NCBI GenBank assembly: GCA_002102555.1 | Contig: MCFL01000002.1 | Span: 1,116,001 to 1,180,000 of the forward strand | Direction of reading: 5' to 3' | From: Catenaria anguillulae PL171 | Lineage: Eukaryota > Blastocladiomycota > Blastocladiomycetes > Blastocladiales > Catenariaceae | DNA: 64,000 nucleotides | Shown here: piece by piece, positions 11,956 to 55,057 of the stretch | Numbering within the stretch: the stretch's first letter is position 1 | How the letters are laid out: every line of letters begins with the position of its first letter | Program-made: the position numbers and the translations under genes | The notes under the pieces: model-generated | The model's database searches: none | What the model saw: only the letters and a program-made list of their open reading frames with translations | Told to the model about the DNA's origin: nothing

Positions 11956-14900
11956 CTATGGATCGTCATCGCATATGCAGGCTAAAGCGGGAACTGGCCC
12001 CGTGTTGATGGTGCGATTCCGCCACTTGAAGTTGGTGCGGTGCCGCGGAATGGGCGCGACGCTGTTGGGCCAAGACGAGGGCAGCGACTTGTACAGGACC
12101 GGGCCGTCGTCGTCCAAACCGTCGAGCTTGACCAAATTGTTGAGCGGCGCGGTCAACGTTCATGATTCCACTCGCGCCGGCAGGCATGGTGTTGCGGTCG
12201 TCGGGGAACTCGATATGTCAGACGGTGCCTTGGACGCTGTTGATGGCAGACAAGTCTACGCAGGCGTTGGTGGTGACCTTGACCCGCATTACCGACAAAG
12301 AGGGGCAGGGTCGGATCTCGCAATCTGGCGGATGATGCGGTTGTTGCATGCGTGGCGGACAGAGTTGTCGGGAGCGACGATCAGCGGCAGCGTCTTGTAG
12401 CCGAGGGTCGCCTTGAAACGGGCCGACTTTTCGTATCCCTCCTCGGAACTCGTCGAGTTACTTGCCGATGCGTGCCTCGCGCACAATACGTTCCCAAAGG
12501 CAGTCGTTGATGAACCGGTGGTTCTCAGTCAGCCGGATCACGGTCGTCAAGAGCCGGAAGAGCTCAAGATCTTGCCTTGCCATTGGCGCCGTGTGCTTGC
12601 CGCCGAGAATGGTGTCGATGAGCGCAGTGTCTTGGACGGGCGGCAAGTGGCCAAAGTTGCCACAGATGAGCATGACGATACCACCAAATGGGCGGTCGGC
12701 CACCTGCTTGAACTGGTGCAATTCCTTGTCGGCCCGAGCGAGGATGGTGGCGCCTGGGACGAAAATGCAAATGCAAGAACGGAAACCAAAGGAAACAGGA
12801 GGCAAAATAAAGAAAAACGAACCCATCATTGACACCTCGTTGATGATAATGCCCAATACGTTTGCCCATTGGTTTGCCAGAGCAGGGACCACGAAACCTT
12901 GGACGCTTGGCAGTGCTCGTCGTTCTTGCGACTGATGCTCATGTTGAGAGCCAAGTGAAGCGTCAATCCACCCAGTCTTGAAGCAGCCAGCCCAGACAGG
13001 GCGGTGACGAGCACGGTGCCAGGAATGTCCCAGGCCAATATGCAATTGATGACAGCCTTGACCGCTTGGGACTTGCCCGTACCACATTCACAACCAGAAT
13101 GGGTTTGTCGTTCATGCCGTCCTTGAGCGCTTGTATAGGTCGTCGTTGGAAAAGCTGGAGTTGGCGTCAAAGCACGCGCTGACAGCACCTGCGAACGAGG
13201 CAAACCCGGCGTAGGCGGCGAGCACGGGAGCCATGAACCACACGAATATCTTGTGCTGCATCTCGTTGAGCATGTACAGGGCAGATACAAGATACAGCAG
13301 CAAGAGTCGGGAAGGCGGCGTCGCGCTGGTCGACAGGTGGGCGGGCGTTGGCGTCGGCAATAAAACCACAGTTCCACAATGCCTTGAGGGCATACTCGAC
13401 CCTGGCGGACATTGTGGCAACGACCACATTGGGCTGCTCGGTTGCATGCTTGTGCTGGGCACGCCTGATGGAAAACTTGGTTTCCATCTCGCCCTGTATC
13501 TTTTGCGTCACGCCCAGGCGGGTGAAACGGGCGGCATGGCCAATGGATGCAGCGTACTTGCGCAAGCTGGCAACACCAATGGTACGATTCCCACCGACCC
13601 AATCATCCACGGGGCCGCCCGACTCGAGTGCTTCAAGCATGGCAAACAAGCGCTTGAGCTCTTGGCACAGCCTCCCATGGCGCCAGTATGCGGACTCATC
13701 CGACCCAGCCTTCGCCCACAGAGGCAACACAACGTCCTCCTCAATCTCGACATCGTTGTCGACGCCGGACACAACCTACCCAAGCCTCCATTACTGGCCA
13801 ACCGTCAACGCAAGCCGCGACACTTCTAGTCCGACCCAATGCGGCGCCGTGGAACGAAGAGCAGCAACCGCATGTTGGTCGCGAACTGGAGCCGCTTCTC
13901 GCGCGCGTCAGCGTCGTCCTCGTTTCCTTCATCTACAACGGGCGCGGCGGTGCTGGACAAGTCGTCGGGGATGTCGGGAGCTTGTCGGAGCGCGGGTGCG
14001 TTTGGGCGAAGCGGTAACTCTTGGCGGCCGAGTCTCGCCAACCGGACAAGTCGTCACGCGAGCCAAGGAACGGTTGCCGAGCTAATTTCATAGTGAACCG
14101 GCTCAAATCAGCACAATAATGAAAATAGGAAACAAAAAGTTCGAAGCGTACAAGCAGAGGCAGGAGCAGGAGACGCATCAGCGGCGTCATCGTCACTGGG
14201 GTCGGACGACGAGCTGGAATATGTTGCACACAATGGAACCGATGGGTGAGTGAAGGTGCCAAAGTGGAGACGATTCAGAAACTGAGCGGCACACCTCCAT
14301 CATCATCCGCGAACAAGGCAATCGGCAGCGGCGCGTTGTGGCGCTTGCATTTGGGCGGCTTTGGTGGCGATCTTGAGAGATCTGCCGCAGAAGCGGACGC
14401 TTGCTGGAGCTGACTGCGAGAGATTGGGAGGCGAGAGCTGGTGCCGAGGACGAGGAGCTTACAGCCGAGGCATGGCGCTTGCAGGGCGGAATGATGAGCT
14501 CGTCCTCGCTGCCGTCGCCGTCGCCGCCGTCATCGCTTGGCGTGCCATCCATCTCTTCTGCCTGGCGCTTGTTGGGCGTGAAGCGGCCGACGCAAAAGAA
14601 GCAGATGAAGTCGAACAGCGAGTCAGCGACACGTCGCGCAATTCGGGCGGGTGGTGGCGGGAGTCATCCATATGGAACCCAATGGAGACCTGGGACGAGT
14701 TGTCCTTGCGCACCGACAGTAGCGCCGTCTAGCCCTTGTTGTTGAGCACGTCGAGACATGGCCTTGTACTGGTCGACAGGGTGCGATCAAACGTCAACGA
14801 GCGGCGGCGGCGTATTGGAGCACAAGAGACGGCGGTTGATTCGCTGGGCAATGGACCGAGATGCCCGTCGCAACCATCAGCCAAGCACTTCAACCCGTAA

Positions 14901-16264: not shown

Positions 16265-19200
16265 CTACGCATCTGAAATGGACGACGACGGCGACGTTGA
16301 CGCCGACCCAAGCGATGCCATGGTCGATGACGTGCGCAAGCCCGTCGACGCCTCCAGCAGCGCCGCCGTGGACGACGACGACTGGCCCGCAGCCCGCCGC
16401 GACATGGCCCACAAGTAATCCCACTCGCCCGACTCCTTGCACATGTGGTGGAACGTGCCGCCTTCGTGGTTCATGAGCTCGAACGGAGATCCAAACTCGA
16501 CCACTTGGCCGTGATCCAGAACCAAAATCTTGTCAAAGTCGCACACGGTACGCAACCGATGGGCAATCACAAGAATGGTGCTTTCGCTAAACTCTTCGCG
16601 AATCGTCTTTTGAATCCGGGCATCCAAGTCGTGCGACACGTTGGCCGTCGACTCGTCCATGATGATGACCTTGCTGCGGCGCAAGAGGGCACGTGCGAGA
16701 CTGATGAGCTGGCGTTGACCAACAGACAAGTTCTTACCACCGGGCGCAACGTGCGAGTCAAGGGTCCAGACCGAGTTGGCAGCCGCGCCCGACGAGCTGA
16801 CGCGCTCCTCGCCGCCCTCGATTTGAATGGCGGTTTCGCTGTCCGAGGGGCCGGCAAGTGACGACACGGACGTGCGGCGCGATTGCACGGCACTGTCGGC
16901 GGGGAACACGGACGAGTTGTTGGTGGACTGGGTCGATTCAAAGAAGTGCACACGCTCGAGGGCGTTCAAGATGCTCGCATCGTCATGCTCGTTGAGCACG
17001 TCCAAGTTGGACCGAAGCGAGCCTTCAAACAGGACGGGATCTTGTTGCACCATGGTCACGCGCGAGCGCAGCACCGACAAGTTCAAGTCGCGAGTCCGAA
17101 CACCGTCAATCTCAACGTAACCATCCTCGGCCTCGAGCATGCGCAACAGGGCAAGGGCAAGCGACGATTTACCGGCGCCGGTACGACCAACCACACCAAT
17201 TTTCGTTTTTCCAGGCACCGAGAAGGAGATGCCGCGCAACACGGGCGACGTGGACGACGGGTAGCGCATGGTCAAGTTGTGCACCGTCAGATCGCCGCGC
17301 GTGGGCCAGTGGGACGGGGTTGACCCCTCAGTGGGCTCTTGCTCGATTTGCATGTACTCTTGGAACCGCTCGACCGAGTTGAGGTTCATCTCCATCTGCG
17401 CGTGCATGCGCACAAGCCACAAGCACGAGTCCGAGATACCCATGACCCACGACAGGGCAATGCCGGCAGTACCGGCGTACAAGTTGCCCGAAATCAGAAT
17501 GGCCAGGCCACACGCCATGATGACAATGTTGCTGAGGAAATCGAGGCGAATCGACAACCACCGGTTGGCAACCCACAGGGCAAAGAAGGGGCGGTGGTGA
17601 ATATCCATGCGGTCATGGGCGCGCTTGACAAAGTCCATTTCGCGACGGAAGGCGCGGACGACCGAAGTGCCCGTCGAGGTTTCTTGGAATTGTGACAAAA
17701 TGGGACTGCGGGTCACCGACTCGAGACGCTTGAGTTCGCGACTCGAAGACAAGTAGTAGCCCGAGATGAACTTGTAGGCAAAGCCAAGGGGGGCAACAAA
17801 GAGCAGGAACAAGGGCGAGATGACCGACACCATGGTAATTACCTGTAAGTGAGACATTGACAGAGTGAGCAAGACTGATGTGTGCATTGTGGAAACACGT
17901 GAGTGCGAGGCAACATACCAAAATGACTGAACTCAAGCACCAAATCACAGCTACCATAGAACCCATGACCTCACGGTCAATGGTTTGCTGGTCCTTGGAA
18001 AAGCGGTTGATTTGACGGCCAATGGGTTGCGACTGGAAGAAGGTGATGGGAGCCGAGAGCACCCGGAAGAGCAGATCGTTGTGCATCTTGATACCGCCAC
18101 GAAGCGTGACAAACACCTCAAGCACATTGAAGGCGTACTGGATAATGACGTTGAAGGCACAGAGACCGGCGTAAACCGACATGTAATAGGCGAGGTTGAC
18201 CTCCTTGCGACCAGACAAGACCGACATGAGCTGTGTCAAGGCAGATTCGCGCGAGTCGACGGGGGCGTCGAGGCCAACGGCCGACGGCGCAACCGAGGGC
18301 GAAGCGAGCAACGACATGGACAAGTACGACGAGGCCGTGGTCGACAAGATGTTGGCCGCCTCCGTGTACTGCTGGGCCCACTCCTTGAGCCACCAATCCT
18401 GGCCAACGTTGAGGCATTGCGGAATGGCAATCGACAAGAGCAAAATAACCCACCAAATGGCACCGCCCGTGGCCGAAATGTAGGCCGCGTACACGGACCA
18501 AGACACGGAGCCTGAAGCCTTTTCCTCGTCCTTGATGAGCTGGTTGGCTGCCGGTGTTTCCGCAGTCGAGTCGTCGGACGATTTGGTCTTTTCGCCCTTG
18601 GACTTTGCCTTGGATTTGCTCTTCTTGTTGTCCACCTGCGTGGTGTCCTCATCCATAGACCCGCGACGAGAGACGCTGGGCGTGGCCACCTCGAGCAGCG
18701 ACGCAGCCTCCTCGTCAAAACCTTGTGCAAGCAACATCTTTGCCACCTCCTGAATCGAATCACCCTCGGCAACCGCGCGACCATCCTTCAAGTAAATCAA
18801 ATGATCGGCATGCGGTGCAACCAACCCGACCGCGTGCGACACGAGCACACGCGTCTTGCCCTTGAGCTCGCCCAAAATACACTCGTGGAACAAGTGCGCA
18901 GCCGTAGGCGCATCCACAGCCGACAGCACATCGTCCAAAATGGTCACGTCGCAGTTGGCATACACAGCACGCGCAAGACTGCACCGTTGCTTTTGGCCAC
19001 CGGAAAGGGCAACGCCACGCTCACCGATTTGCGTCGAGTCGCCACCATCGAGGATCTCGAGGTCGCGCGTCAGCGCACAAGCGTGAATGACCGACTGGTA
19101 CCGGGCCTCGTCGTAGGGCGACGAGAAAAGAATGTTTTCGCGAATGGTTGCATTGAGCAGCCAAGATTGTTGAGGCACGTAGGCAATCGGAACGCGCGGC

Positions 19201-21753
19201 ATGTACACTTGGCCGTTGACGAGGTCGAGCTCGCCAAGCAGACCGTGAAGAAGCGTACTCTTTCCTTGTCCGGTTCCACCCAGAATGACAGTGAGTTTGC
19301 CCCGAGGGAACTGGACGTTGAGGTCACGAAGCGCGAACGCAGCCGAGCCGTTGGCATCTTCGGCCGTGTTGTCTTGCTGCTGAGCAATGAGCGGGTCTGT
19401 GGACGACGAAGTCGACGAGCGAGGTGCCTCAGCGTCCGAAGTCGATGCGGCCGTTGCCGACTTGGCACGGGGCCAGCGCATGGTGGCGTTGCGGCAGCCA
19501 ATGTAGACTGGGTGGTTGTCGGCAAATGAGCCGTACGTGGTGGGTTGCGAGGCAAGCGCCATGGCCGAGGTGTCGATGGTGTAGTCGACCAAGTCGGGGG
19601 CATCGAGGTAACTTTGGACACGGTACACGGAGACGCGGACTTCATAAAAGCGAATGATTTGGTCGGGAAGATCCCTGCGAAAGAGTACAAGTATTTGAGT
19701 CAGTGACAGCGTCAATGTGTAAAGGGGTTGAGGAAAAAACGAACCAAAGAGGCATGCGAAGCACTTGGAAAAGTGACAAACTGGTGAAAACTTTGGTCGC
19801 GCTCAGCTCCTCGCCGGCAATACCAGCATAACAGAAGAAGGTAACCAGCGTAACAAGGGTCGGCACCATGTGGTACAATTGGTTTACTCCCGCCATCGTT
19901 AACCAGTAACGGCGCAGTTTTCCGATTTCCTTGGACCGGAGGGACTGAATAATCTCGAGGAACTTTGATTCCCAAGCAAAAAACTTGATGATTTGAATCC
20001 CCTGAAGCACCTCGGTCATCTTCTTGACACGGGCGTCGGTGGCGGTCATGACCTTGTCCTGCTGCGACTCCATGATCTTGCCCAACCAAGTTTGCATCGG
20101 AATCATGAAAGCGAGAATGGCCACGCCAGTGAGGGCAGACCAACCGAGGATCATGTAGAGCGAACCAATGCAGAGGACCAATTGAATCGGGGTCGAGAAG
20201 AGGTATTGAATATAGCAGACTGTGCAAACGAACACAAAAAAGGGTGTTAGTCAAGCCATGAGTCAAGAAATGTGAACAAACATGGGAAAACACATACCAT
20301 AATCGAGAATGCGACCAATATCCGTCGCCACAAGCACGTTCACATCCGATTCGGTGGTGCGGTTCTCGGGGCTCTCCTCCTCCTCCTCCTCCTCCTTGGA
20401 CTCGTCCTGGGCTTCCTCGGACTTGTTGCTTTCTTTGGTATGATCAGCCCCGGCCGCGGCCGACGCATCTGCGGCCTTCTTTGCCGCTTGCGTATCCATC
20501 ATGTGCGGGTTGCGCGACAAGGTCTTGCGGAACAAGAGCGAGTTGAGAATGGCACGCACGCGGGTACCGACACGACGACCGGTAAAGTAGGTCTGGCCGG
20601 CAAACAAGGACGACAGGGACGAGCACAAGAACATGCCAAAGACGTAAAAGTAGGGCGTCCAGGGCGACGTGGTGACGGGATCAAAGTTGCCTTCAAGGTA
20701 AGAGAGCAGGCGGTTGAGGAAGAAGGGGCCAGCGAGGGCAAGCATCGAGACCGAGACGCCCGCAAACACTTGGTACGCCATGAGCCACTTGACGGTGAGG
20801 GCAATCGACACCCAGGCGGCACGGCCAGGGCGCACATGCTGAGCGTGCTCGCGCACGGCAGCAACCGACTTGTCGGCCACGGCCAGGTCCCACACATCGT
20901 TGATTTCGAGCGGCTTGGTGTATCCTTGATGAACAAGGGGAGTGAACCAGGAGAAGGTGGCGATCTGGAGCAGGGACGCAAACGGTTCAAGCGACATGGG
21001 CGCCGGCGTCGACGCAACGCCGTCGGCAGCCGTGGTCGACGTGGACCCGTTCGAGGTGGCCAGAATGACCCGTTGCTTTGCATGCGTGACGCGGTTGTAC
21101 TCGAGGGCGGCAAAGACCAGAGCCAGCAGCACAGACGCCGAGGAAGCAATGGGGATTGCGTGCTCGAGGGTGATTTGCGAGACGTTCAAGAGAATCGAGC
21201 GCAAGTTAATCAGCGACGAAACCATGTCGACAATCAAGACCACGACCACGGGGAAGATGCGCGAGGGCAAAATGCGCTCGGCGCCGATAAACAAGAGCGC
21301 AGCAAATCCGAAATGAAGCCCAAAAACGGCCTGGTCCATGGTGGAGCCCGCCAAGACTGCGGCGACAGCCTGCAGGACGGCATAGAGGCCAATTGACGCC
21401 AACATGAGCGCCCTGGCCGCCGATTTCTTGGAGTTGACTTCCTTGAGCGCTTGTGCGCCGGCCGCCGGAATCAGCGTGCCGCCCTCGAGCACGGCCGTCT
21501 CGAGTTCCTCATCGAGGTACGAGTCGGGCGTGTCGGCGGACAGTTGCGAGTAGCCGAGGTACCCGGCGGCACGGCGGCGGTACTTTGCCCAGTACAGGGC
21601 CAAACTGGCAAGGCCGACGCCAAGGGGCAAGGCCGTTGTGAGGATCCAGGCTCGGAAGCACGGCGAAAAGTCGTTGGGGCGGGTGACGCCGGGTGGGTAC
21701 GGAGACCAAACACCGTCGGGGCAGAGCGAGTTGGCAAGTGACGAGGACGACAT
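16265..21753 (-). CDS. ABCC-family (MRP/Ycf1-like) full-length ABC transporter
   Basis: Four exons: 21753-20298, 20219-19745, 19674-17919 and 17842-16265. The three introns are 70-78 nt and all frames fit, predicting 1754 residues. The order is a TMD0-like N-terminal membrane domain (first ~230 residues), TMD1, NBD1, TMD2 and NBD2. NBD1 has Walker A GGTGQGKSTLL near residue 777, signature LSGGQKQR and Walker B VTILDDVLSAVD, with Asp instead of the catalytic Glu, as is usual in ABCC NBD1. NBD2 has Walker A GRTGAGKSSLAL near 1445, signature LSVGQRQL and Walker B VIIMDESTANVS. The family exports glutathione conjugates, drugs or metal complexes across vacuolar or plasma membranes. The linker after NBD1 is Lys/Ser-rich. 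A Glu-rich tract near the end of exon 1 is encoded by a (TCC)n run around 20378-20395 on the plus strand. The D-loop Asp of NBD2 appears replaced by Ser. Confidence 0.93.
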
Positions 21754-26687: not shown

Positions 26688-29600
26688 TCATTGCTGTTGC
26701 ACGGCCGTCTCGCTCCGCGTCGCCTCGCCTTTTCCCCCGGCGGCTACCGACTTGTCGCTTGCCTTTGCCTCGCGTTTCGGTGTCGCCTCTGCCTTATTCC
26801 CACCCGCCTTGCCACCATCTTTTGCCGCCCTGACCACATATGCTCCAGAGTTCTTGCTTGTCCCACTCACACTCGACTGGCTCGCCGACTTGTTGCGATT
26901 CGCAAGCACGCTTTTGCTTGCGTCCCCTTCACCTGGTTCCCCTGCGTGATTTTGATTCAGCGCTGGCTGGGATGCCGTAAATTGAGGTTTGCGCGGAGAC
27001 TTGATGCTTTGAGCCGCCACCGGCATCTTGGGTTTTACTGGCGAAACAACTTGCTCGTCTTCGGCTGTAGACAGCACATCAACGGAATCAGGCAGTCGTG
27101 TGTTTGCCGCTTGAGACAGACTCGAGGTGGATACCGAGGTTGATGCTCGCGTGGCAACGTGTCGCGCGGATCCGGAGGATGACGCTGTGGAGAGGTTGTG
27201 CATCGAGGCTGGCGCCGACGGCGGAAGCGCAATCGCAGATGGGTCCAATTCCGCCTTTTTGGCCAAATGCCCTTGCGACCTCCTACCCTCTGAATGGTTG
27301 GATCCAGCCGTCAACCTGGTACTTGATCCGGATAGCCTCGTGTCCGACTTTGACAGATTGCGGCTCGCAGCAAGGCTGTTCCGAGATGCCGGAAGTGGAA
27401 CTTGGGATGGGTCAGTCGACTGGTCATACTTTGAAGCTAGACTTTTCACGGAGCCAGAGCGCTGAGAAAGTTGTCTTTCGCTTGCGGCTCGATGCGGACT
27501 GCTCGTGTTTGCATTCAGCGAGGAATGGGAAGACTGGTGCTGAGCCTGCGTTTGATTCGAAGGTGCGAGGTTTTGAAGCGAGGACGCAACCGAAGCGGGC
27601 AAAGCAATGGACGCTGGGTCCACTGGCTCTTGTGATTCCGTTGCGTCCTGCTGTGCCGGCTCGTTGTCGGTGGAATATGATTCAGATTCGGCGTGCTCAT
27701 GTTTAGACTCACCTGGAAGGGACACGTCTGTTGATGGCTGTACTTGAACGATTTCAGCATCCACAGGGAGAGTGTCTGCGGGCATCGTCGTTTGCGCGAG
27801 CAACTGCAGCGACGCGATCGAATCCTCTTGCTTCTGTTCTTGAGCAGTCACAGCGGAAGACAGCTGCTGAAGTGATGACGCAACCGAAGGAGGCAACGGC
27901 ACGGTCGCAGGATCCACAAACGTCACTCGAGGTTTGCTTGACTTGGGTGTTGAGGTCAAGGACTGAACCGACGTTGCACGACTCGAAGCAAGCTTTTGCT
28001 GACTTCCTGAATCCTTCTTCTTCGCCAAAACGTCTGATTCATATGATGTAGCAGAGGTCAGCCTTGGCCTCGAGTCTTGAAAGCGGGCATCATACACGCG
28101 AGCATACCTTTTGATCCCTTTCCAGAAAGCGACTGCATCGATGAAGCTCGTGACCCAGCAAGAATTGACCTGCTCGGCGCCTTTGCAAGCCGTGGAGGCT
28201 GAGACGCTGCCAAGTTTTGCAACGACGTGGCCGCTGAGGGCGGAAGCGCAATCTCATGAGGATCCGCCTTTGTTGCACTTGAGAGCTGTTCATTGGACGC
28301 AAGTACCTGCTTTCGTGGAGTGATCGATAGTGGAGATGCAGACACTGGGCGGACCGACTTGTTGGCAGGCTGCGTTTCCGCGAGCGTGTGGTTCTCTCCG
28401 CCAAGAGACAGGACTTGCGAAGCGGCCACGGATTCAGGTAATGGAATGTTCGATGCATCAAAATCAACGTTGGGCTGTGTTTTGCCGTAATCCAATTCGG
28501 ATGAGCTTGTTGATACAAGAACCTGAGAAGCGGCGACCGAGGCGGGCAACGGAATAGCGGCCGGATCGTATAACCATGAACCGACCTGTGGTTGGAGCGG
28601 CGGCCAGTTTGAATTGAGCTGGTTGACCGATCCATGGAGAGACGTTGATGAAAGCATCGTGCGAATGGCGTGCTGTTGCACACTTGCTGGAGGTTGAAAT
28701 GGGGTTGCATCCGATTGGCCCAAGATATCGAGCGACCCGGCAACCGAATCTGGGAGCGTATACTGATGTGCTTCAGGTTGGCGCTCGCTTGCTATGTTTT
28801 CTTGGGCAAAGGACGCAGATTGGGCGGGAGCTTGGTCGCTTGCCAACGGCCCTGGCGGTTGTGCGAGAATCATGGAAGCGGCCACAGACTCTGGGAGAGC
28901 GATTGCTGTCGGATCAACTTGCAGCTGACCATGGGAATGCGCAAGGATGGTTGAGGCTGCAACGGAATCTGGTAATGCAACCAACGTAGGATCCAAGGCC
29001 GCATCCTGTTGTCGCCTACCTTCGCCAGACTCGGGCGGAACTTGCCCTGCCGGACTTGCGTGAATCAAGTTTGAGGACCCTAGAACTTGTGCAAGCTCAT
29101 GCTGAGCTCCCGATGACAGCAGTACATTGGACGACGCAACCGATGGCGGCAACATAACCATGACAGGGTCAACCAACCCGTGGCTCGTCTGCAACATACT
29201 CACGGACATGGTCGCTCGACTTGACGAAGGACGTGAGACGCTGTCATTTGCAATCACAGCCGGAATCGCAACGGAAATGGCATCCGACTCGATATGTGAT
29301 TGGGAATGGAGTGCATTGAGAGAGTTCGCGACTGATTCGGGAAGAGGCACATTTTGAGACATGCTCTCAATGTCGTCATTGGTTGGCTCGGAAAGTGTGT
29401 CTGCATTCTTGTCCAAGATCATGGCTGAAGCAGCTACAGATTGTGGCAAGGGAATCGCGGTGGGGTCAAAGGCTTCTCGCACGCCTGGATCGTTGTCGTC
29501 GTCCACAACAATAGCCCTTGTCGCGTGAGCTGTGATGGTTGCGGCCGGAGGCTGGTTGAGCACGTTGAGCGAGTTTGCGACTGACGCGGGCAATGGAACG

Positions 29601-32600
29601 TTGCACGACATGGACTCGATATCTGCCGAGGTTGGCTCTGCCAGCTGGCCCGTGCTGCCGTGGAGGACTATGGCCGACGCGGCTACAGACTGTGGCAACG
29701 GGAGAAATGTGGGATCATGCACGTCAAGTGTCCCTGATTTGGTTTCGACCACTTGAGGCGTTCCAGCGACATTTGATGTTGATGCCGAAGGAATGGGTGC
29801 CTGCGAGTTCAAGACGTTAAGCGATGTTGCGACCGATGAAGCAAGAGGAACATTGTGAGACATGGACTCGACTTGAGCATCGGTTGGCTCGCCGATTGTA
29901 TTTCTCGCGTCGCTGAGCATCAATGTCGAAGGTGCAACCGAATGCGGCAGCGGAATCGAGCTCGGATCAAGCACTTCGCGCACACCTGGGTCATTGTCCT
30001 CATCAAGGGTCGCCGTGACAGAATTCGGTTGTGGTTGGGCTTGGAAGTCGATGAGCACTTGGCGAGATGCGACTGTCGACGCTGGGAGCGGAACACCGAG
30101 AGCAAGCGTGCTTGCCTTTGCAGCGGACAGGTGTGGATCGTTAAGGACCAGAGCAGATGCAGCAACTGAATGTGGCAATGGGACGGCTGCAGGATCCAAC
30201 ATCTGCGGCGTTGCTTCGGACAGGTGCACATTGGATTGTGAAGCACCCGAAAGCGCCTGGGACGCGGCCACCGAGGCTGGCAATGGAACCATGGCTGGCT
30301 CAACAATCCGTGAGTCGCTGAATTCTGGCTGTAGGCTCGGCTGGGTTGCCTGTGAGAGGTGCATGTCCGACGCAGCTAACGGTTGCGATGCGACAACAGT
30401 TTGTGGGAGCACAACAAGAGCGGGATCAACGGCCTGCTGGGCTGACGATTGTGGTCCTGAACCTTGACCCGAAGATGACAGATTCCCAGCGGATCCAAGC
30501 AAAATCATTGAGACGGCTACGGATGCAGGAAGTGGAATCGATGTTGGATCAGCTTCGGAAGATGCTCTCTGCAACGGCGCTGTCTGTGCAACTTGGGGCT
30601 CGGAATGGAGAACCTGGGAAGCGGCAACAGATTCTGGCAGAGGAACACTCGCGGGATTATGGTCGTCTGACATAGACTCGAGCTCGGCAACGTGATGCGG
30701 CGAGCTCGCTGGCATGGGCGATTCAAGCACCTCAATCGAACGCGCAGATGACGGATACAAGGTCATGGATGCCGCAACCGACGCAGGAAGCGGAATTGTC
30801 AATGGGCTGACTGCATGCGAAAGCGAATGCGGTTGTGCATCGGGTGAGGGCTGTGCAGATGGAGATGCAGCAGCGAGGAGCACGGTGGAGGCACTCACAG
30901 AAGCTGGTAGTGGGACTTGTTGCGCATCGAGCAGGTTTGCTGCGGACATGTGCACTGTTCGTTCATTTGACGTGTGAGAATGCTGCTCATTCAAAACCAA
31001 CGCTGATGCGGCTACGGATACTGGAAGCGGCATTTGAGTTGGATCGGTGACCGCATTTAGCTGCGTCGCAGTAATGGGTTGCTTGGCGACATTGGTTTGC
31101 GAAGCAAGAAGATTTCGTGATGGAGCAACGGAGGCAGGGAGCGGAATCAAAGCTGGATCATTTGGATCCACACGAATCGGCTCGTCGTCAGCGGTGCGTG
31201 TATTGGGTAACGTGACTTGCTCCTGTGAGACATTGTGTTCAAGCGGCTCGAGAAGCCATGCAGACGCGGCTATCGAGGGTGGAAGCGGGACGCGACTTGG
31301 ATCCAAGTGCTGATGCGACGAGGTAGGTTGGCTGCTGCTGAGCGGCTGTAAGTTGAGAATAAGGGCAGATGCAGCAGCCGAGGCGGGCAGCGGAACCGCG
31401 TGTGGGTCTTTCCCATCCACAGAGTTGTGCGCGAGTTCGCGGGAGCGATGCAAATCATGTTGCGAGGAGGCGAGAACTTGCGAGGGAGCGACAGATTGGG
31501 GCCGTGGAATCAGGACCGCTTCCTCGTTTGGCGACTGTCTCAACTCCAGGCCGGAGACCTTATCGGTGGGCTCTTGAGCAGACGTGGCAAGCTGTTCTTG
31601 GCCCTCTGCATTATGCACTTGTGCTCGCGTTTGGTTCTCGGCCGGAGTCTCAGGCGAAAGCATTGCAATTGATACCGCTTTCGACTCAGGCAATGGAACT
31701 GCGGATGGATCCAAAACGACCTGCTCCTGCTGAGGTGCAAGCCCCCGACGGCTTTGGGCAACAGAGGCGGCGGACAGGAGGACAGCGGAGGCTGCAATCG
31801 ATGCAGGCAGTGCCACATTTTCTGGGTCGATCGAGAGTAGCTGATGTGATCTTGCCTTTGGCGTTGGATCTACCGGCGCCAAGTTTGGTTCGGATTGGGC
31901 TTTGGCTGGCGCTGCTTGGCTGGGAACGGAAAGATTGGCGTTCGACACCGCCCTTGCGTTTTGACTTTGATTGATGATCGTTGGCTGGCCATGCGTGTTC
32001 GGGCCGAGCACTTGTGACGCCGCGACCGATGCGGGCAACGGGATGTGCGCTGGGTCGAGGTTACTTCTGGTGTTGCTGCTTTCTGGCACATCTGTGATCT
32101 CAGCGGGTGTACCGAGTACGATGGCAGATGCAGCTACGGAAACGGGGAGCGCGATTGCGGCAGGGTCCACATTGGCTTTGAGATTTGCATTCTCGGACAG
32201 AGTTTCTGGCACTGGAGGCTGCCCGCTTGACGCAAGATTTTGAGAAGCTGCCACTGAAGCTGGGAGCGGGACGTCAGTTGGCTCGACCTCACTTGTGCGC
32301 GCTGATAGCTCGACTGCGGGCTCAACGACAGTGACTGATGCTGGTGATTCAGGTCCGTTTGAGGGCAAATCAGGACTCGATTCAAGCGGGTCGTCGGACT
32401 GCTGGTTTTGACCAGTGGGCATGGCTTGTGAGACTGGCTGAGGCTCTGTGGACAACAGCGCAGTTGACGCAGCCGTTGACGCAGGCAGGGGCACGCGAGC
32501 CGGATCCAACTGATGTTGAGACCGACTCTCAAGTGGCAAAGGTGCTGAAGCGTTAGAATCGGTCGACAATGCTCCTTGGGAAGCAGCTCGAGCTGGAACT

Positions 32601-35600
32601 GATTCAGGAACCAGAGTTCGCGACTGGATCCGTTGTTGATCCACTTTCTCGTTTGACTTTGACTTGAACATGACCCCCACTGCTGCCGCTGCTGCCACTG
32701 CTCCAGCGGCAATCGCAACACCGAAACCACCAATGGACTTCGCGACGGAAGAAGACGTTTCTTTGCTGAGTTCTCGGGACTGGTTGCGCGACTTTGATCT
32801 GTCAATGTTATCAAGCGATTCACTTTTTTTCTGGGCCGACGGCGGCGGGTGGGCAGCTGGTGGCGTAGGATCTTGCCCGCCGCCATGATCCGCTGGAATG
32901 TTTGTGTTTGGCCCTAGCACGTCGCGGGAACCGGCAGTTGGGGGAGGCAGTGCAATGGAGGACGAATCCACTACCGCCGAGTCGTCTTGCCGAGCGAGGT
33001 TTTGGTCGACAATCGTGGCCGGTTGCCCAGAATGCTCCTGCGCAGGTGGATCTTGCATCTGTGTGACAAATGTCGAGTCGGCCAATGGACCAGAGTGCGA
33101 AGCATGGGCACCCTGAGCTTCCTGCTGCACCGCTTCCTGAATGGCCTCGGTTGCTTCTGCTGCTACATCGTTTTGAGCTGGCGCGTTTGGTTGAGGCTGA
33201 GGTGCGAACAAGACTTGAGACACGGCAGCTGAAATCGTCGGCGGTGTCCGCGCCTCGTCAGCAAACACTCTTGCGACGGCGGGTTCAGGCTGCGCAGCAT
33301 CCGGAGATGATTGTAGTGCGCCCACATCTTGGATCATTTGGGGCAATTGCTTTACCACCAAATCTTCCTGTGACGCTCGCTGCAAAAGCTCCACATTGTC
33401 GAATGCCGATTCTGGAGGCTGCTGCACTGCCGTCACTTCCTTGAGTGAAGCTTGCGACCCATGCCTGCTACCCGAACGTGGCGCCGACTTGGCTGGTGTC
33501 GCTGTACCGCTTGTTCTCCCCCCAGCGACCAACTTGCTAGTACTAGAGGCATTCGGCAGCTGCGAGCGCGAGCCGTGGCGAGAGGATGCGGCAGATTTCG
33601 ATGGAGATGGCCCAACAACGGCTTGTTGCGCATAAGGAGACGAAGTGCCTGGAGGTTGAACGTAGCGAATGGTGTCACTTGCCGGCCGGCGCAAGGCATG
33701 CGATTCCGGTGATGTACTTGGCTCTTGTGTGACAGACGGCTCGGCCAACCCAGTTTGCGATCCAGCAAGAGAACGCGGACGCGAAGCAGGGAGTTGGGCA
33801 TTGGACTTGCGGTGAACGTTAGATGACGAGGGTGACTGAGCGAGGGGCGCCGGTTGTTGCGCTTGGGGTTGCTCCTGTGTCGCCTGGCTGTCCACTGTGC
33901 TCAGAGGGCTATCTAATTCTTCAACTGCTCGCTGGATCCGTTGGACGAGGGTGCCGTGACTTGGGCCGTCGTAGCCTTGCTCCTCCTCACCTCCGCCAGT
34001 ACCCCGTCAACATCACCTCCAAGCGAGGCAATGTACCCAATCAACATGCGCTCGGCATGACTCAGCTCAGGCACTGCCGACTGTGGCACTGCTTTATCTG
34101 CCGCCGCAAGCACGTCGGCGCTGCTGGGCCGCTTCTTGGCTGGCAAGTCCTGGGCAGGTGCAACCGGACGCACCTGTTGTTGCTGTTGCTGCTCTTTCCA
34201 GTGAGCAATGACCTGCTGCTGAAACTCAACAATGTCCCTCAACAAGCCGCCGGATCCAGCGGCGTCGACCGCATAGTGCATGGCCGAAAGCGTGGCGGAT
34301 TCCGTCGCAACGCGATTGGTATCAATCAAAAATGCAATGCGAGCAGTGACAAGGTACGTTTCCGACAAGATGGCGCGGGAAATTGGGTCCCGAGAGTGGC
34401 CTGGGATGGCCTGCATGGACTTGATAATGTGAAGCGATTCTTCGCGAAGAGCGGCGATTGATTCCTTATCGCTGGCTGCCGTTGAAGCAAGGCGACGGGA
34501 AACGGATTGAAGCTGGGATTCAAATGTCTTGGTTCTGTTCCATGGCCCAGAAAGAGTAAGCGTATGCATTCCAATGAGCATATCCTAGCAGAGGACGACG
34601 TGCCGTTTCTCATCCATGGTTCCAACCGGCAACCCTTGCTCACTGTCTGCGGGTGGGTCTGAACTTGTTGTTGTCGCCGGCGCATCAGTTAGCCTTGTCT
34701 GACTCGTCTGGACCATTTCCTCCACGTGAGGCTTGGCTTGCGTCTGCACCATCCCGTCCCTCAAATTCACCTCGCTGGTCTGTGCGCCCGTCTCAAACAT
34801 GACTCGAGCGCTTGCTTGCACGCCCTCCTCACGTTGTAGCACACCCAAATGGCTCGTTGAAGGCATTGTCCCCATCTCCGCAGTCGTTAGTTGTTGTTGC
34901 TGCACAGCAGATGCCGCATCCCTGGTCTGCGCACCCGCACTTGCGTCAATCACCCCGAAAACCCCACCGACAATTGGCTGCTCAACCACAAACGATCCCA
35001 TCGATGACGGATTCGCACTTGCACTGGCACTGTCAAACCCGGCATCTGCATAGTCATCATGAAACTCGGCCACCGGGTCTCTCAACGCCAACTGCACTGT
35101 CGGCAACGTCCCGGCTTCGTGTCCGGCATGCGCGTACGGATGGCGCACAGGTCTTGCCACTGCAGGCGACGCACGCGACGGTGCACGCGTCGACGGGTCC
35201 GAGCCCGGGTCGTCGTAGTCGCCCCGGAACTCGGACACAGGGTCACGCACGAGGGCAGGTTCGAGTTGCTTGTCACCGTTGGCTTGCGCGGCGAGCCGGT
35301 TGGAGCTTGAGGGAAGACCCTTGGTGAATGCGGACTTTGGGCGAATTGGACGCGGCGCAGATGGGGGCTGGTGGAGTGTCGAGGAGATGGATGCGCCAGA
35401 TCCGAGGCGCGAATTGGCGGCCGTGTTTGAACGCGTGGTCGGACGAGAGAGCACGCTCGTGGGAAGGTTGTAGCGGTTGGGTAGGCCAGAGGGATTGATG
35501 CGCGGGGCGTTGTTGACAGGCGGAAGAGGGTTGGCCGCGGACGGAGCTTGAGTCGAAGCAGGTTGAAGCTGTTGCATGGCTTGAGAGAGGACATCTTCGT

Positions 35601-46586: not shown

Positions 46587-47626
46587 TTAGGGCTTGGGTT
46601 GCGACTCTTGGTACATGGTGGCCACAATCAAGTTGAAGAGCTCCTGCATGTACTTGACACGCTCGGCGTGCTCAGAGATGTGGCGGCGCGTTGCCTCGTC
46701 CACGGCGGGTTCGTTGGCCTGCTCAATGCCCAAATCACCCTTGTTGGTCGGAGGGTGCACGGTATCGGGCTTGCGTTCCTCGGTCTTGGGCGGCTGCGGC
46801 TTGGGCTCCTCCTTCTTGGTTCCTCCTTCTTGGGCTCTTCCTTCTTGGGCTCGGAAGGCGCAGGGGTGGCCTTGGGCTCGGGCGCCTTGAAGATGGCGGG
46901 CGTGCCAAGCTTCCACTCGTTTTCTTGTGCTGGGGCCGGAGCGGCTGGGGATGGCGAGGGAGCAGCAACAGGCTGGGGCTCGGGGCGGGCCGGTGCGGGA
47001 GCGGGCTTTGGCTCCTCCTGGGGCGGCGCCGGTGCGGGCGCCGGGGCAGGCTTGGGCTCTGGCGCGGGTGCGGGAGCACCACCACCACAGGGCACCTCTT
47101 GCCAAGTCACGTCAATGACGCCAGCCCCAAGTTCGGCAAAGTGTTGGAACAAGGACGGCGACATGTCGAGGCCACGATCGGGGCATCCGGGGCACTTGTC
47201 GACGACGCGAGCAACAGCCGTGGTCTTGCCATTGGTGACAGCAATGCACTTGCCGCACCAGGGAGACGATCCGGGAACGTTGCCGAATTGCGGAGCGTTG
47301 AGGGCGACAACGAGCTCGGCATTGCTGTTGGTGGAGCCGCAGGCACCGAGACCAACCTGGAGCAGATGTAGACAGCAGAAAACGTGTGAGTGACTAATCC
47401 CGTCGCACGTGATCAAGACACTCGAAGACAATCATACGTCGTAGTGGGTGGCACGGTTACCGCGCTTGACGAGCAGCGGCGAATCCGAACCCGATCCGGC
47501 CAAGTGCGAGAACTGTGCAACCGAGGCAGCGCCCTTGAAGTTTGCACGCGGGGCAGCGTCCGCGGCGGGGGACGAGCAGGCGGCAACGAGAAGGATGGCG
47601 GCGGTGGCGGCAGTCAAGGGATACAT
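46587..47626 (-). CDS. Secreted RlpA/expansin-like double-psi beta-barrel protein with an apparent frameshift
   Basis: Exon 1 is 47626-47438 and exon 2 is 47356-46587, with an 81-nt intron (GTATGA to CTCCAG). The protein starts with a signal peptide (MYPLTAATAAILLVAACSS). The barrel domain spans the intron: ATHYDVGLGACGSTNSNAE, PWCGKCIAVTNG, VVDKCPGCPDRGLDMSPSLF, and VTWQEVPCG. This is the fungal barwin/RlpA-like fold that acts at or on cell walls. The family Asp (VDKCPGC) and cysteines are kept. A Pro/Ala/Glu linker follows. At about 46819 one base is missing from a (CCCAAGAAGGARGAR) repeat. Restoring the frame gives a helical, acidic C-terminus (EHAERVKYMQELFNLIVATM) and 319 residues in total. 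Without it the protein ends after an Arg/Ser-rich tail near 46628. Confidence 0.8.
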
Positions 47627-51978: not shown

Positions 51979-53188
51979 GTGGGGGGCGCGAATCGGTCAC
52001 ACAGTTACAAAGCGGGTGGGATGGGAGTAGAGCCTTGTGGGAATGCGATGCGGTGGGTCACTGGGTGTTTCGTTGTCAATAGGTGCATAGGTTCATTGCC
52101 GTTAACTTTTTCTCATGAAGTGATTTTCCAACATGTTCCACGTCGGCCTTGTGGCGGCGGCGCTGCCGCGGTGACTTCGACTGCAGAAAGTGGGGCTGCC
52201 GATGGCCCTTCTCCTCGGCCTTCACTGCAGTTGCTCATCATCACGCAACTGCACGACAACCTGCCACGGGGCTTCTTGCGCCCCTGCAGCTGGCCGATAC
52301 TCACATTGGCAGAAACCTGACGCCCTTCAACTGAACTGAATGGCAGACTCGGGATGTGTCGTGGTAATGTGGCAAGAGAAGCTACATACCTATTCCATCC
52401 CATTGACATGAATCATGAATAGCGACCACCATCGTTGATGCATCCTGAGCCTGCAGTGTGCGATATATACACCCGTAGCTAGGTATAAACATGAATGCTT
52501 GGCACCTGCCATCCAAGCCTGAGCCGGCGTGCATCATTCCTGTTTGCATTCTTGACGCGTCCTCGTCCATCGACTGAGAGCAAGCCATGACTCGAAGTCA
52601 TGACTCTCCCCAACTGTCTGTTGGCATGCATGAACGGCCAGCCCCGTCGAGCCCGCATGCCAATCACCCACAAACGAGGCAACCGTGCAATCTCCCCCAT
52701 TAGCCTCACCATGACCATGTTAGTAAACCATGACCCCTCGCTTTGGTTCCGTCATTCCCTCGTGACGGGTTGCTGGTGAGTTCATGACATGGATATGAAT
52801 GAGCCCACAGTCATAGCACACCGCGCTGTGACCCGCTTGAACGCCGATTCAATATGTCCGGCTGCGGCATTTGTTGACAGAAGGTCAAGTTCAGTCGCAC
52901 TTCCATCATGGACGCAGGCGCAAGCGTTTGGCATCCATGAGCCGACGAGTTGAGTGGCGCGAATCGTCCAATCTTCGGGTGCTTCAACGAGTCCCATCCA
53001 GAATACAAAACGTCGCCAGCTCCCCCTCCCATTTCTTTTTCTTGTGTTGATCCTCATACACCCGCAACTGCTTTCCAACATTGTATCGTGACTCCTGGCG
53101 AGCACTCCACCCATCACCATCATCCACCCACTCATTCCCACGCGCTAGCCGCCCCTACGTTCATCACCATTCCTACACTCTCTTCAAC
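51979..53188. other. Divergent intergenic region
   Basis: About 1.2 kb between the minus-strand DUF726 gene and the plus-strand secreted repeat precursor. It holds both promoters. I saw no gene. Confidence 0.5.
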
Positions 53189-54094
53189 ATGACTCGCCCC
53201 ACACCCCGCCGCTCTTCCGTCAAGTTTGCCATTGGCGCCGCCCTGCTCCTCGTTGCCCTCGCCGCGCCTCGCCTCGCGGCTCCTGTCCCGAACCCGCAGC
53301 AGGCCTGCCAGGGACTCAACGACGACCCAGAGGCCGGCGGCTGTTCGACTGTTGGCGGATTCACTCCCCCGATTGTCGACGAGACGGCCAGCTCCGAGGC
53401 CGCCGCACTCAAGAAGTTCAAGCGCGCCCCGGAACCCGAACCCGAGGTGGCCGGCGTTAGCGAATCGCCCGCCGTGTTCTTTGAGCCTGGCCAGGACGAT
53501 AGTGACGACGATCCGGCCACTTTGGCCAAGCGTCAGGCTGAAGCCGATGATGACGACGAGGACGATGAGGCCGATGGCGATGCACAACTGGCCAAGCGCG
53601 AGCCGCACGATGACGGCGAGGAACACGATCACTTTGTCAAGCGCCAAGCTGTCGAGGCCGAGGAGGACGAAGAGGATGAGGATGATGATGCGCCGCTTGC
53701 CAAACGCGAGCCGCATGATGAAGGCGAGGACCACGACCACTTTGTCAAGCGTGAGCCTCATGATGATGGCGAGGACCACGACCATTTTGTCAAGCGCGAG
53801 CCTCATGATGATGGCGAGGACCACGACCATTTTGTCAAGCGCGAGCCTCATGATGATGGCGAGGACCACGACCACTTTGTCAAGCGTGAGCCTCATGACG
53901 AGGGCGAGGACCACGACCACTTTGTCAAGCGCGAGCCTCATGATGATGGCGAGGACCACGACCACTTTGTCAAGCGCGAGCCTCATGACGAGGGCGAGGA
54001 CCACGACCACTTTGTCAAGCGCGAGCCGCAGTCCGACTTTGACGCCCCATCTGCCGAGGAGATTGCGGCTGCTCATGCCGAGGATGACGAGTAG
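53189..54094 (+). CDS. Secreted precursor with eight Kex2-type (KR) peptide repeats
   Basis: Single exon, 301 residues; the ATG at 53189 precedes a signal peptide (SVKFAIGAALLLVALAAP). After a Cys-containing segment (QQACQGLNDDPEAGGCSTV), the rest is divided by Lys-Arg sites: KFKR, LAKR, LAKR, then eight units of EPHD(D/E)GE(D/E)HDHFVKR, one isolated and seven in tandem. Every KR is followed by an X-Ala or X-Pro dipeptide (AP, QA, EP), the substrate of Ste13-type dipeptidyl aminopeptidase. The predicted product would be HDDGEDHDHFV-like, 11 residues and rich in His and Asp. This is the logic of fungal alpha-pheromone and Kex2-processed repeat (KEP) precursors. Such His/Asp peptides might bind metals (inference). 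The last segment ends in a helical acidic tail without KR. It could instead be an acidic wall protein. Confidence 0.8.
   Translation: MTRPTPRRSSVKFAIGAALLLVALAAPRLAAPVPNPQQACQGLNDDPEAGGCSTVGGFTPPIVDETASSEAAALKKFKRAPEPEPEVAGVSESPAVFFEPGQDDSDDDPATLAKRQAEADDDDEDDEADGDAQLAKREPHDDGEEHDHFVKRQAVEAEEDEEDEDDDAPLAKREPHDEGEDHDHFVKREPHDDGEDHDHFVKREPHDDGEDHDHFVKREPHDDGEDHDHFVKREPHDEGEDHDHFVKREPHDDGEDHDHFVKREPHDEGEDHDHFVKREPQSDFDAPSAEEIAAAHAEDDE
53708..54022 (+). repeat. Seven tandem 45-bp coding repeats
   Basis: Seven head-to-tail 45-bp units, each coding 15 residues ending in FVKR. They differ mainly by synonymous changes and by GAT/GAG (D/E) at one codon. High DNA identity suggests recent expansion or ongoing homogenisation. 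Confidence 0.95.
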
Positions 54095-55057
54095 AGCGCT
54101 AGTGTTGCTATAGCATGTGTCATGCCCATTCCCACCTTCACAGTTGTACATTATCGCGCCTATTGACTCCGTCAACCGCTTTCGCACTTTCTTTTTGTTC
54201 TCATGTCCTGTTGATGCAAACCTTTACCATATACATTTATTGACCTGTCCCATGCCATATGTGCCTGTGTTGGGAGGTGAGACATGTGAGACAAGTAAGG
54301 TGCGCATCTTGATGTGAGTTACATTGGTGGCGCTTGCCTATCGCCTATCGTGCACAGTCCTTGACTGGGGTAACCGCTGAGTAGAATGGCGGGTTTCCCT
54401 CGCGTCCTGTAAAGGGTACTTTGTGAGAACTTGAACCGGAACTCCCTTCCAATCACACTGTTCCACATCGGCATGGGGCCGCCAGGGCGGAGGTCGTCGA
54501 CTACGTATCTTTCATACAGTTTTGTCTTCGACTTGACTTGAGCGAGCTGGGCTCTGACTTGCGTCTCTGCTTGTCAGGTCAGTTTTCGCCATCCCTGGTT
54601 CAACTACAATCTGCGCTTCCACACCCACAATGCCGGTTGATGTTGATGTTGGCTGGCAACTCTGCCCGGCTCTGGGAGTAGTCTCAGTAAGGCCGAGTCT
54701 CTATCCTCCTTCTGGATGGACATTGAATCGGGATGGAGTGGGGTAATAAAATGAGGGAACTTGAACCCAATGTCTCTCAAGGCCGGCAGACCACTCCGAG
54801 CCGACCCGATCACGCGTGTGACAGGCCGTCTTGGGTCAAATTTGGATCACGAATCGGTTGCTTTTGGGTTTGTCGCTTTTCGCTCATGATTCTCTTCTCT
54901 CTCATCCTTCATGTTCCTTTAATTCTTCATTCATCGGCCTCATGAATACGAATTGATACTTGCCGTCCGCCAGTTCATGCCCGTCTTCCTGCCCCGAGAT
55001 CGCCATTTGTGTCGCCAACAACAACTCTGTCACCAAACACCTCAACAACATACCAAG
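54095..55057. other. Intergenic region
   Basis: About 960 nt between two plus-strand genes. It contains the 3' flank of the secreted precursor and the promoter of the PRPP synthetase gene, with pyrimidine-rich sequence at 54885-54935. No gene is supported. Confidence 0.5.

Follow-up and report, generated by a model that had tools for sequence, protein, structure and literature searches.

A putative KEX2-processed repeat protein with an acidic, His-rich peptide unit in Catenaria anguillulae

In a 64,000-nucleotide stretch of the Catenaria anguillulae PL171 genome (contig MCFL01000002.1, positions 1,116,001 to 1,180,000; hereafter the window), we found a gene that quite probably encodes a secreted KEX2-processed repeat protein (KEP). 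Its product would be cut at KR pairs and trimmed at the dipeptides that follow them, releasing several near-identical copies of one short peptide. The confidence expressed here refers to the processing and not to the role of the peptides; secretion, cutting, trimming and role are all inferred from sequence. Many fungi have precursors of this type, and the present gene adds a further member.

Precursor layout and KR sites

The frame extends on the plus strand from an ATG at 53189 to a TAG at 54094, is open without an intron and encodes 301 amino acids. Its features are as follows.

53189..54094, plus strand: whole precursor frame, 301 aa plus stop; a second copy lies at G000:C72:5351-6349 (332 aa)
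53189..53281, plus strand: N-terminal leader, residues 1-31, a probable signal peptide with a hydrophobic stretch at residues 13-31; its end is inferred
53282..53419, plus strand: conserved N-terminal segment, residues 32-77, with Cys40, Cys52 and DDPEAGGCSTVGGFTPP; also present in two paralogues and in a protein of Blastocladiella emersonii
53420..53425, plus strand: first KR site, residues 78-79, then Ala-Pro (sequence inspection)
53426..53527, plus strand: 34-aa peptide between KR sites, residues 80-113 (KR layout)
53534..53593, plus strand: acidic spacer 1, QAEADDDDEDDEADGDAQLA, KR-bounded; unlike between the two gene copies
53600..53644, plus strand: unit 1, EPHDDGEEHDHFVKR (KR layout)
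53645..53701, plus strand: acidic spacer 2, QAVEAEEDEEDEDDDAPLA, KR-bounded (KR layout)
53708..54022, plus strand: units 2-8 in tandem, each EPHD[DE]GEDHDHFVKR, 45 bp period (TRF and KR layout)
54023..54091, plus strand: C-terminal tail EPQSDFDAPSAEEIAAAHAEDDE beyond the last KR (KR layout)

The single hydrophobic stretch of the precursor lies within the leader (Kyte-Doolittle 2.02), which is a probable signal peptide with a putative cleavage site. By hydropathy, no further hydrophobic stretch follows (highest 19-residue mean 0.37). The two-cysteine segment, CQGLNDDPEAGGC, is succeeded by strongly acidic sequence, and the net charge past the leader amounts to -69. Tyr and Trp are absent from the entire protein, and the unit is free of Cys.

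Twelve KR pairs were found in the precursor, with first residues 78, 114, 136, 151, 172, 187, 202, 217, 232, 247, 262 and 277. Each is followed by X-A or X-P (1 AP, 2 QA and 9 EP). In both gene copies, Lys and Arg past residue 76 occur exclusively in KR pairs; elsewhere they are found in the leader and in a KK at residues 75-76, just ahead of the first KR. The precursor has eight 15-residue units of the form EPHD[DE]GE[DE]HDHFVKR, a solitary one and, beyond an acidic spacer, a tandem array of seven; TRF independently placed the tandem part at 53697-54027 (period 45, 7.4 copies, 94% matches). Outside the units lie 77 N-terminal residues, three further peptides of 34, 20 and 19 aa flanked by KR sites, and the 23-aa tail. 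The eight KR-ending units and the X-Ala or X-Pro after every KR that a sequence-only reading had described were recovered, the dipeptide at 12 of 12 sites; the signal peptide of that reading corresponds to a probable one, with the hydrophobic stretch at residues 13-31.

A chance origin of the KR layout is very unlikely. With the tandem part collapsed to one unit, 6 KR pairs remain; the residues of the post-leader part were shuffled 200,000 times without reaching this number, and A or P as second residue after all 6 has a probability of about 2e-4 from composition. The window has 274 stop-to-stop frames of 100 codons or more, and the precursor frame was the only one among them with at least three equal KR spacings of at least 9.

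Alternatively, the precursor might stay whole and serve as a repetitive acidic protein, secreted or in the wall, whose KR pairs are mere counter-charges. Acidic repetitive secreted proteins are common, and both the very acidic composition and a repetitive paralogue that mostly lacks the X-A/X-P signature (L005, see below) would fit such a protein. However, the basic residues past residue 76 are KR pairs only, are spaced 15 apart in the array and always stand before X-A or X-P. This exceeds the need of charge balance alone and counts against an intact protein, as does the presence of kexin-type genes in the genome. We regard an uncut precursor as unlikely.

Gene copies and relatives of the N-terminal segment

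We searched the genome assembly (G000, 41.07 Mb, 457 contigs) and found a second copy of the gene on contig C72 (5351-6349). It encodes 332 residues with ten units, and X-A or X-P follows 14 of its 14 KR pairs. The first 35,500 or so bases of C72 align with roughly 36 kb of C112, where the match continues to the end of the compared stretch; identity within the matching blocks is 92 to 97%. The C72 copy is probably allelic and would represent the other haplotype, but it may instead be the product of a recent segmental duplication.

Comparison of the two copies points to constraint on the peptide. Across their 18 units, 9 of the 45 base columns vary, all nine of them at third codon positions. 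Residue changes among the units consist of D/E exchanges alone, at two positions, and all 18 units retain every His; Gly, Phe and Val are likewise retained, even in the diverged unit 1. The first 115 codons of the copies show 7 silent differences and no replacement, and neither the first KR-core-KR (17 codons) nor the tail (23 codons) differs at all. Outside the tandem array, residue differences (2 replacements and 1 insertion) are confined to the two acidic spacers: spacer 1 holds the insertion and one of the replacements, and the other replacement, a D/E exchange, is in spacer 2 along with 2 silent changes. In the flanks, identity at ungapped positions is 96.8% over the 1,500 bases upstream (38 gap columns) and 97.3% over the 1,500 bases downstream (124 gap columns). 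The peptide thus appears to be conserved while the spacers drift, though these are small numbers.

Repeat number differs between the copies by whole in-frame units (8 versus 10). The C72 array consists of three copies of a 135-bp block, its units 5-7 being identical to units 8-10, and recent tandem duplication therefore accounts for much of the near-identity of the units. The sequence-only reading had taken this near-identity as a sign of selection for peptide dose. Selection on the unit sequence is upheld by variation restricted to third positions in the 18 units, but the near-identity as such is in part explained by the recent block duplication.

The coding strand can be judged from the same data. 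A minus-strand open frame of 351 codons covers the repeat (53132-54187) and the C72 copy holds another long one, as might be expected of a gene on the opposite strand; the array might also be a chance or non-coding tandem repeat. Against both, all nine variable columns are third positions of the plus frame and the first 115 codons differ by silent changes only, and chance is further opposed by the shuffle result. A minus-strand gene and a chance repeat were dismissed on these three grounds, and we give them practically no weight.

The N-terminal segment occurs at two further places in the genome, both on contig C146 and about 53 kb apart. At the first (G000:C146:144353-144535; L004, L038:4297-4536), an 80-residue frame stops after the segment, with a further exon possible. 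At the second (G000:C146:197884-198060; L005), the segment belongs to a 342-residue frame and is followed by RR/KR sites and NNTD-rich repeats; only one of the 12 dibasic sites listed there, KR-SP, precedes X-A or X-P. Unlike the window gene, neither C146 paralogue has a second copy at E<=10. A profile built from the three N-terminal segments matched one protein among 8,000 candidates, a 79-aa protein of Blastocladiella emersonii (P0001) that carries the Cys-containing segment without a repeat region. The occurrence of the segment in short frames of 79-80 aa and ahead of other repeats suggests that it also forms a small, probably secreted protein and that the repeat regions vary by gene.

A whole-protein search, in which acidic low-complexity words probably drowned the signal, returned no homologue among 7,999 candidates, and residues 22-120 found nothing at E<=10 among 687 candidates. 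Since these searches returned no Catenaria protein either, the absence of relatives there is weak evidence, and the same weakness applies to the lack of a repeat-bearing orthologue among their results. No Pfam family matched the precursor at E<=10, and none matched the B. emersonii protein. None of the titles and abstract openings returned by searches of open-licence papers names the peptide.

Processing and role of the predicted peptides

According to the proposed pathway, the signal peptide would route the precursor into the secretory path, a kexin would cut after each KR, a serine carboxypeptidase would take off K and R, and a DPP-IV/Ste13-type peptidase could trim the leading Glu-Pro. One molecule would yield eight linear peptides (ten from the C72 copy) and a few acidic side products. 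The predicted peptides are EPHD[DE]GE[DE]HDHFV (13 aa) or HD[DE]GE[DE]HDHFV (11 aa), taking the forms EPHDDGEDHDHFV / HDDGEDHDHFV plus those with DEGE.

Kexin-type, DPP-IV-type and serine carboxypeptidase families are all represented in the genome. For the kexin type, seven P-domain matches over the cut-off fall at six places, some of them probably allelic pairs, and one frame holds S8 and then the P domain in order. Of the four kexin frames examined, two (L013 and L009) carry a strong hydrophobic stretch C-terminally; none was seen in L011 and L014, frames that may end at introns. DPPIV_N matched at two places. On contig C257, DPPIV_N and S9 frames lie together, one with GWSYGG, and a frame upstream on the same strand contains a hydrophobic segment (1.96) that could be a membrane anchor. 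Peptidase S10 carboxypeptidases gave 16 matches; in the one S10 frame examined (L043), the sole strong hydrophobic stretch is N-terminal and no Kex1-like C-terminal anchor was seen. All of these are general peptidase families, and their presence is no proof that the precursor is among their substrates.

The precursor agrees with the repeat criteria of published KEP descriptions. In Umemura 2020 (PMC7329392), a KEP has three or more tandem repeats, each 8 aa or longer, between KR, KK, RK or RR sites; here, 8 units of 13 aa lie between KR pairs, 7 of them in tandem, as judged from the layout. Le Marquer 2019 (PMC6339444) gives repeats making up at least 15% of the protein and no transmembrane segment past the signal peptide. 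The repeat share is 34.6% in the window copy and 39.2% in the C72 copy, and hydropathy past the leader (top 0.37) indicates no transmembrane segment. The likeness to KEPs (PMC6339444, PMC7329392) thus covers a hydrophobic leader, near-identical repeats that number more than three and are bounded by KR pairs, and a repeat share above 15%; in contrast, the repeats of this precursor follow a Cys-containing segment common to proteins without such a repeat. Umemura 2020 (PMC7329392) counts 7878 KEPs, 12 of them in two Blastocladiomycota strains, and the present gene may be one of those 12. The statement of the sequence-only reading that the core resembles no known pheromone or RiPP held to the extent that (weak) searches returned no match, but the kind of precursor belongs to a named class, the KEPs.

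STE13 signatures are reported in passages of Le Marquer 2019 (PMC6339444) to occur also in KEPs beyond the Ascomycota pheromones, with Rhizophagus irregularis given there as the unique early-diverging fungus with such signatures in its data. The present gene, which shares with the R. irregularis KEPs an early-diverging host and KR followed by a STE13 signature, would be a further case; the R. irregularis peptides differ in being Tyr-rich, as stated in the same paper (PMC6339444). A dipeptide signature in Blastocladiomycota would push the KEX2/STE13 precursor style deeper in the fungal tree or mean multiple origins.

The unit might also be the core peptide of a modified natural product, an ustiloxin-like RiPP. 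The precursor class is the same as that of the ustiloxin precursor, and the KEP layout resembles that of ustiloxin and phomopsin precursors. However, UstYa (DUF3328) had no match over the cut-off: the sole genome match was sub-threshold (18.9 of 25 bits) and lies about 207 kb from the gene, in an exon-wise search without a matched control genome. The protein contains no Tyr, which the discussion in Umemura 2020 (PMC7329392) describes as mandatory for cyclisation in known cases. No biosynthetic cluster was evident among the 18 scanned window frames. The ustiloxin-type RiPP was therefore rejected for want of UstYa over the cut-off, of Tyr and of a visible cluster; we judge it highly improbable, and the KEP-derived peptides probably do not undergo cyclisation of the ustiloxin type.

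The alpha-factor-like processing layout noted by the sequence-only reading was found in both copies, with X-A or X-P at 12 of 12 and 14 of 14 KR pairs. The precursor is laid out like the alpha-factor precursor of yeast and other Ascomycota, with the dipeptide after every KR and a repeated short peptide; a pheromone role is a candidate only. The core differs in being acidic and His-rich and in having neither Trp nor Cys: judged by eye against the W and PCW features of alpha pheromones, not by alignment, the protein lacks Trp and the unit lacks Cys. Ste2 had no match at E<=1 in the genome, a weak result obtained exon-wise, with introns breaking matches and without a matched control genome. Passages of two papers confine Ste2-class receptors to Ascomycota, and a passage of Le Marquer 2019 (PMC6339444) gives the Blastocladiomycota pheromones as sesquiterpenes, a further difference from alpha-factor. 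A strict alpha-type mating pheromone thus found no backing, given the missing Ste2 match (a weak test) and the Ascomycota-only range stated for that class. With the STE3 profile, one sub-threshold genome match was obtained (E 0.24; no matched control genome). A more specific proposal, that this zoosporic fungus uses an alpha-factor-style KEX2/STE13 peptide signal with a non-Ste2 receptor and that the heterozygous repeat number (8 versus 10) sets its dose, seems doubtful to us.

Two broader roles were weighed. We tentatively place an extracellular signal read by a non-Ste2 receptor slightly ahead of metal binding. As mainly metal or cation ligands, a reading that rivals the role only and leaves the processing as it is, the peptides would scavenge, buffer or detoxify extracellular Zn or Cu. 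HDDGEDHDHFV holds three His and five acidic residues, removal of Glu-Pro would bare an N-terminal His, and D/E exchange is tolerated while every His is kept; Pra1 of Candida albicans is described as a secreted zinc scavenger. On the other side, Gly, Phe and Val are kept too, even in unit 1, and none of the 18 scanned window frames is named a metal transporter, though there is an ABC transporter at 16265-19715. Conservation of Gly, Phe and Val besides His and the acidic residues tilts slightly towards a recognised peptide over a bare metal ligand, although Phe and Val also occupy positions P4 and P3 relative to the kexin cut and may owe their conservation to cleavage. We consider a chiefly metal-binding role possible but rather unlikely. 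If released, the peptides could readily be synthesised and used to test for peptide signalling or metal binding in flagellated fungi.

Other features of the window and genome

A Pfam scan of 18 window frames gave, for the first ten, an expansin-like frame, DUF726 (three frames), PRPP synthetase (two), a zinc knuckle, Ysc84/SH3 and two frames without a family; the other eight comprised PIF1-like helicase (two), ABC transporter (two) and four without a family. Rfam and tRNA scans of the window found none. The PIF1-like helicase frames overlap at 12458-13602 on the minus strand, each covering part of the helicase; one match narrowly passes the cut-off and the other falls below it, and the frames perhaps represent a decayed mobile-element gene or exons. 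Also on the minus strand, a 1,945-codon frame at 28058-33895 contains many copies of a DPxxIPLPxSVAAS-like motif and has no Pfam family, and the expansin/Barwin-like frame at 46628-47431 ends in a Pro/Glu/Lys-rich C-terminal repeat.

Matches of other families were also paired, with the two members on different contigs and scoring the same or almost the same. The assembly seems to carry both haplotypes of several regions (C72/C112, C46/C452, C415/C416, C137/C446 and C221/C405); the identity figure refers to C72/C112 only, and the other four pairs were matched by equal scores. One guanylate cyclase domain of the assembly aligns over 187 residues to PDB 6SIR with a single mismatch, at residue 2 of the chain. 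PMC7384201 gives 6SIR as the rhodopsin-guanylyl cyclase of C. anguillulae, a species that NCBI assigns to Blastocladiomycota; by this one gene, the assembly belongs to C. anguillulae or a very near relative. Guanylate/adenylate cyclases gave 46 genome matches, with places on C54, C223 and C444 (L024-L030) and several lying close together on one contig.
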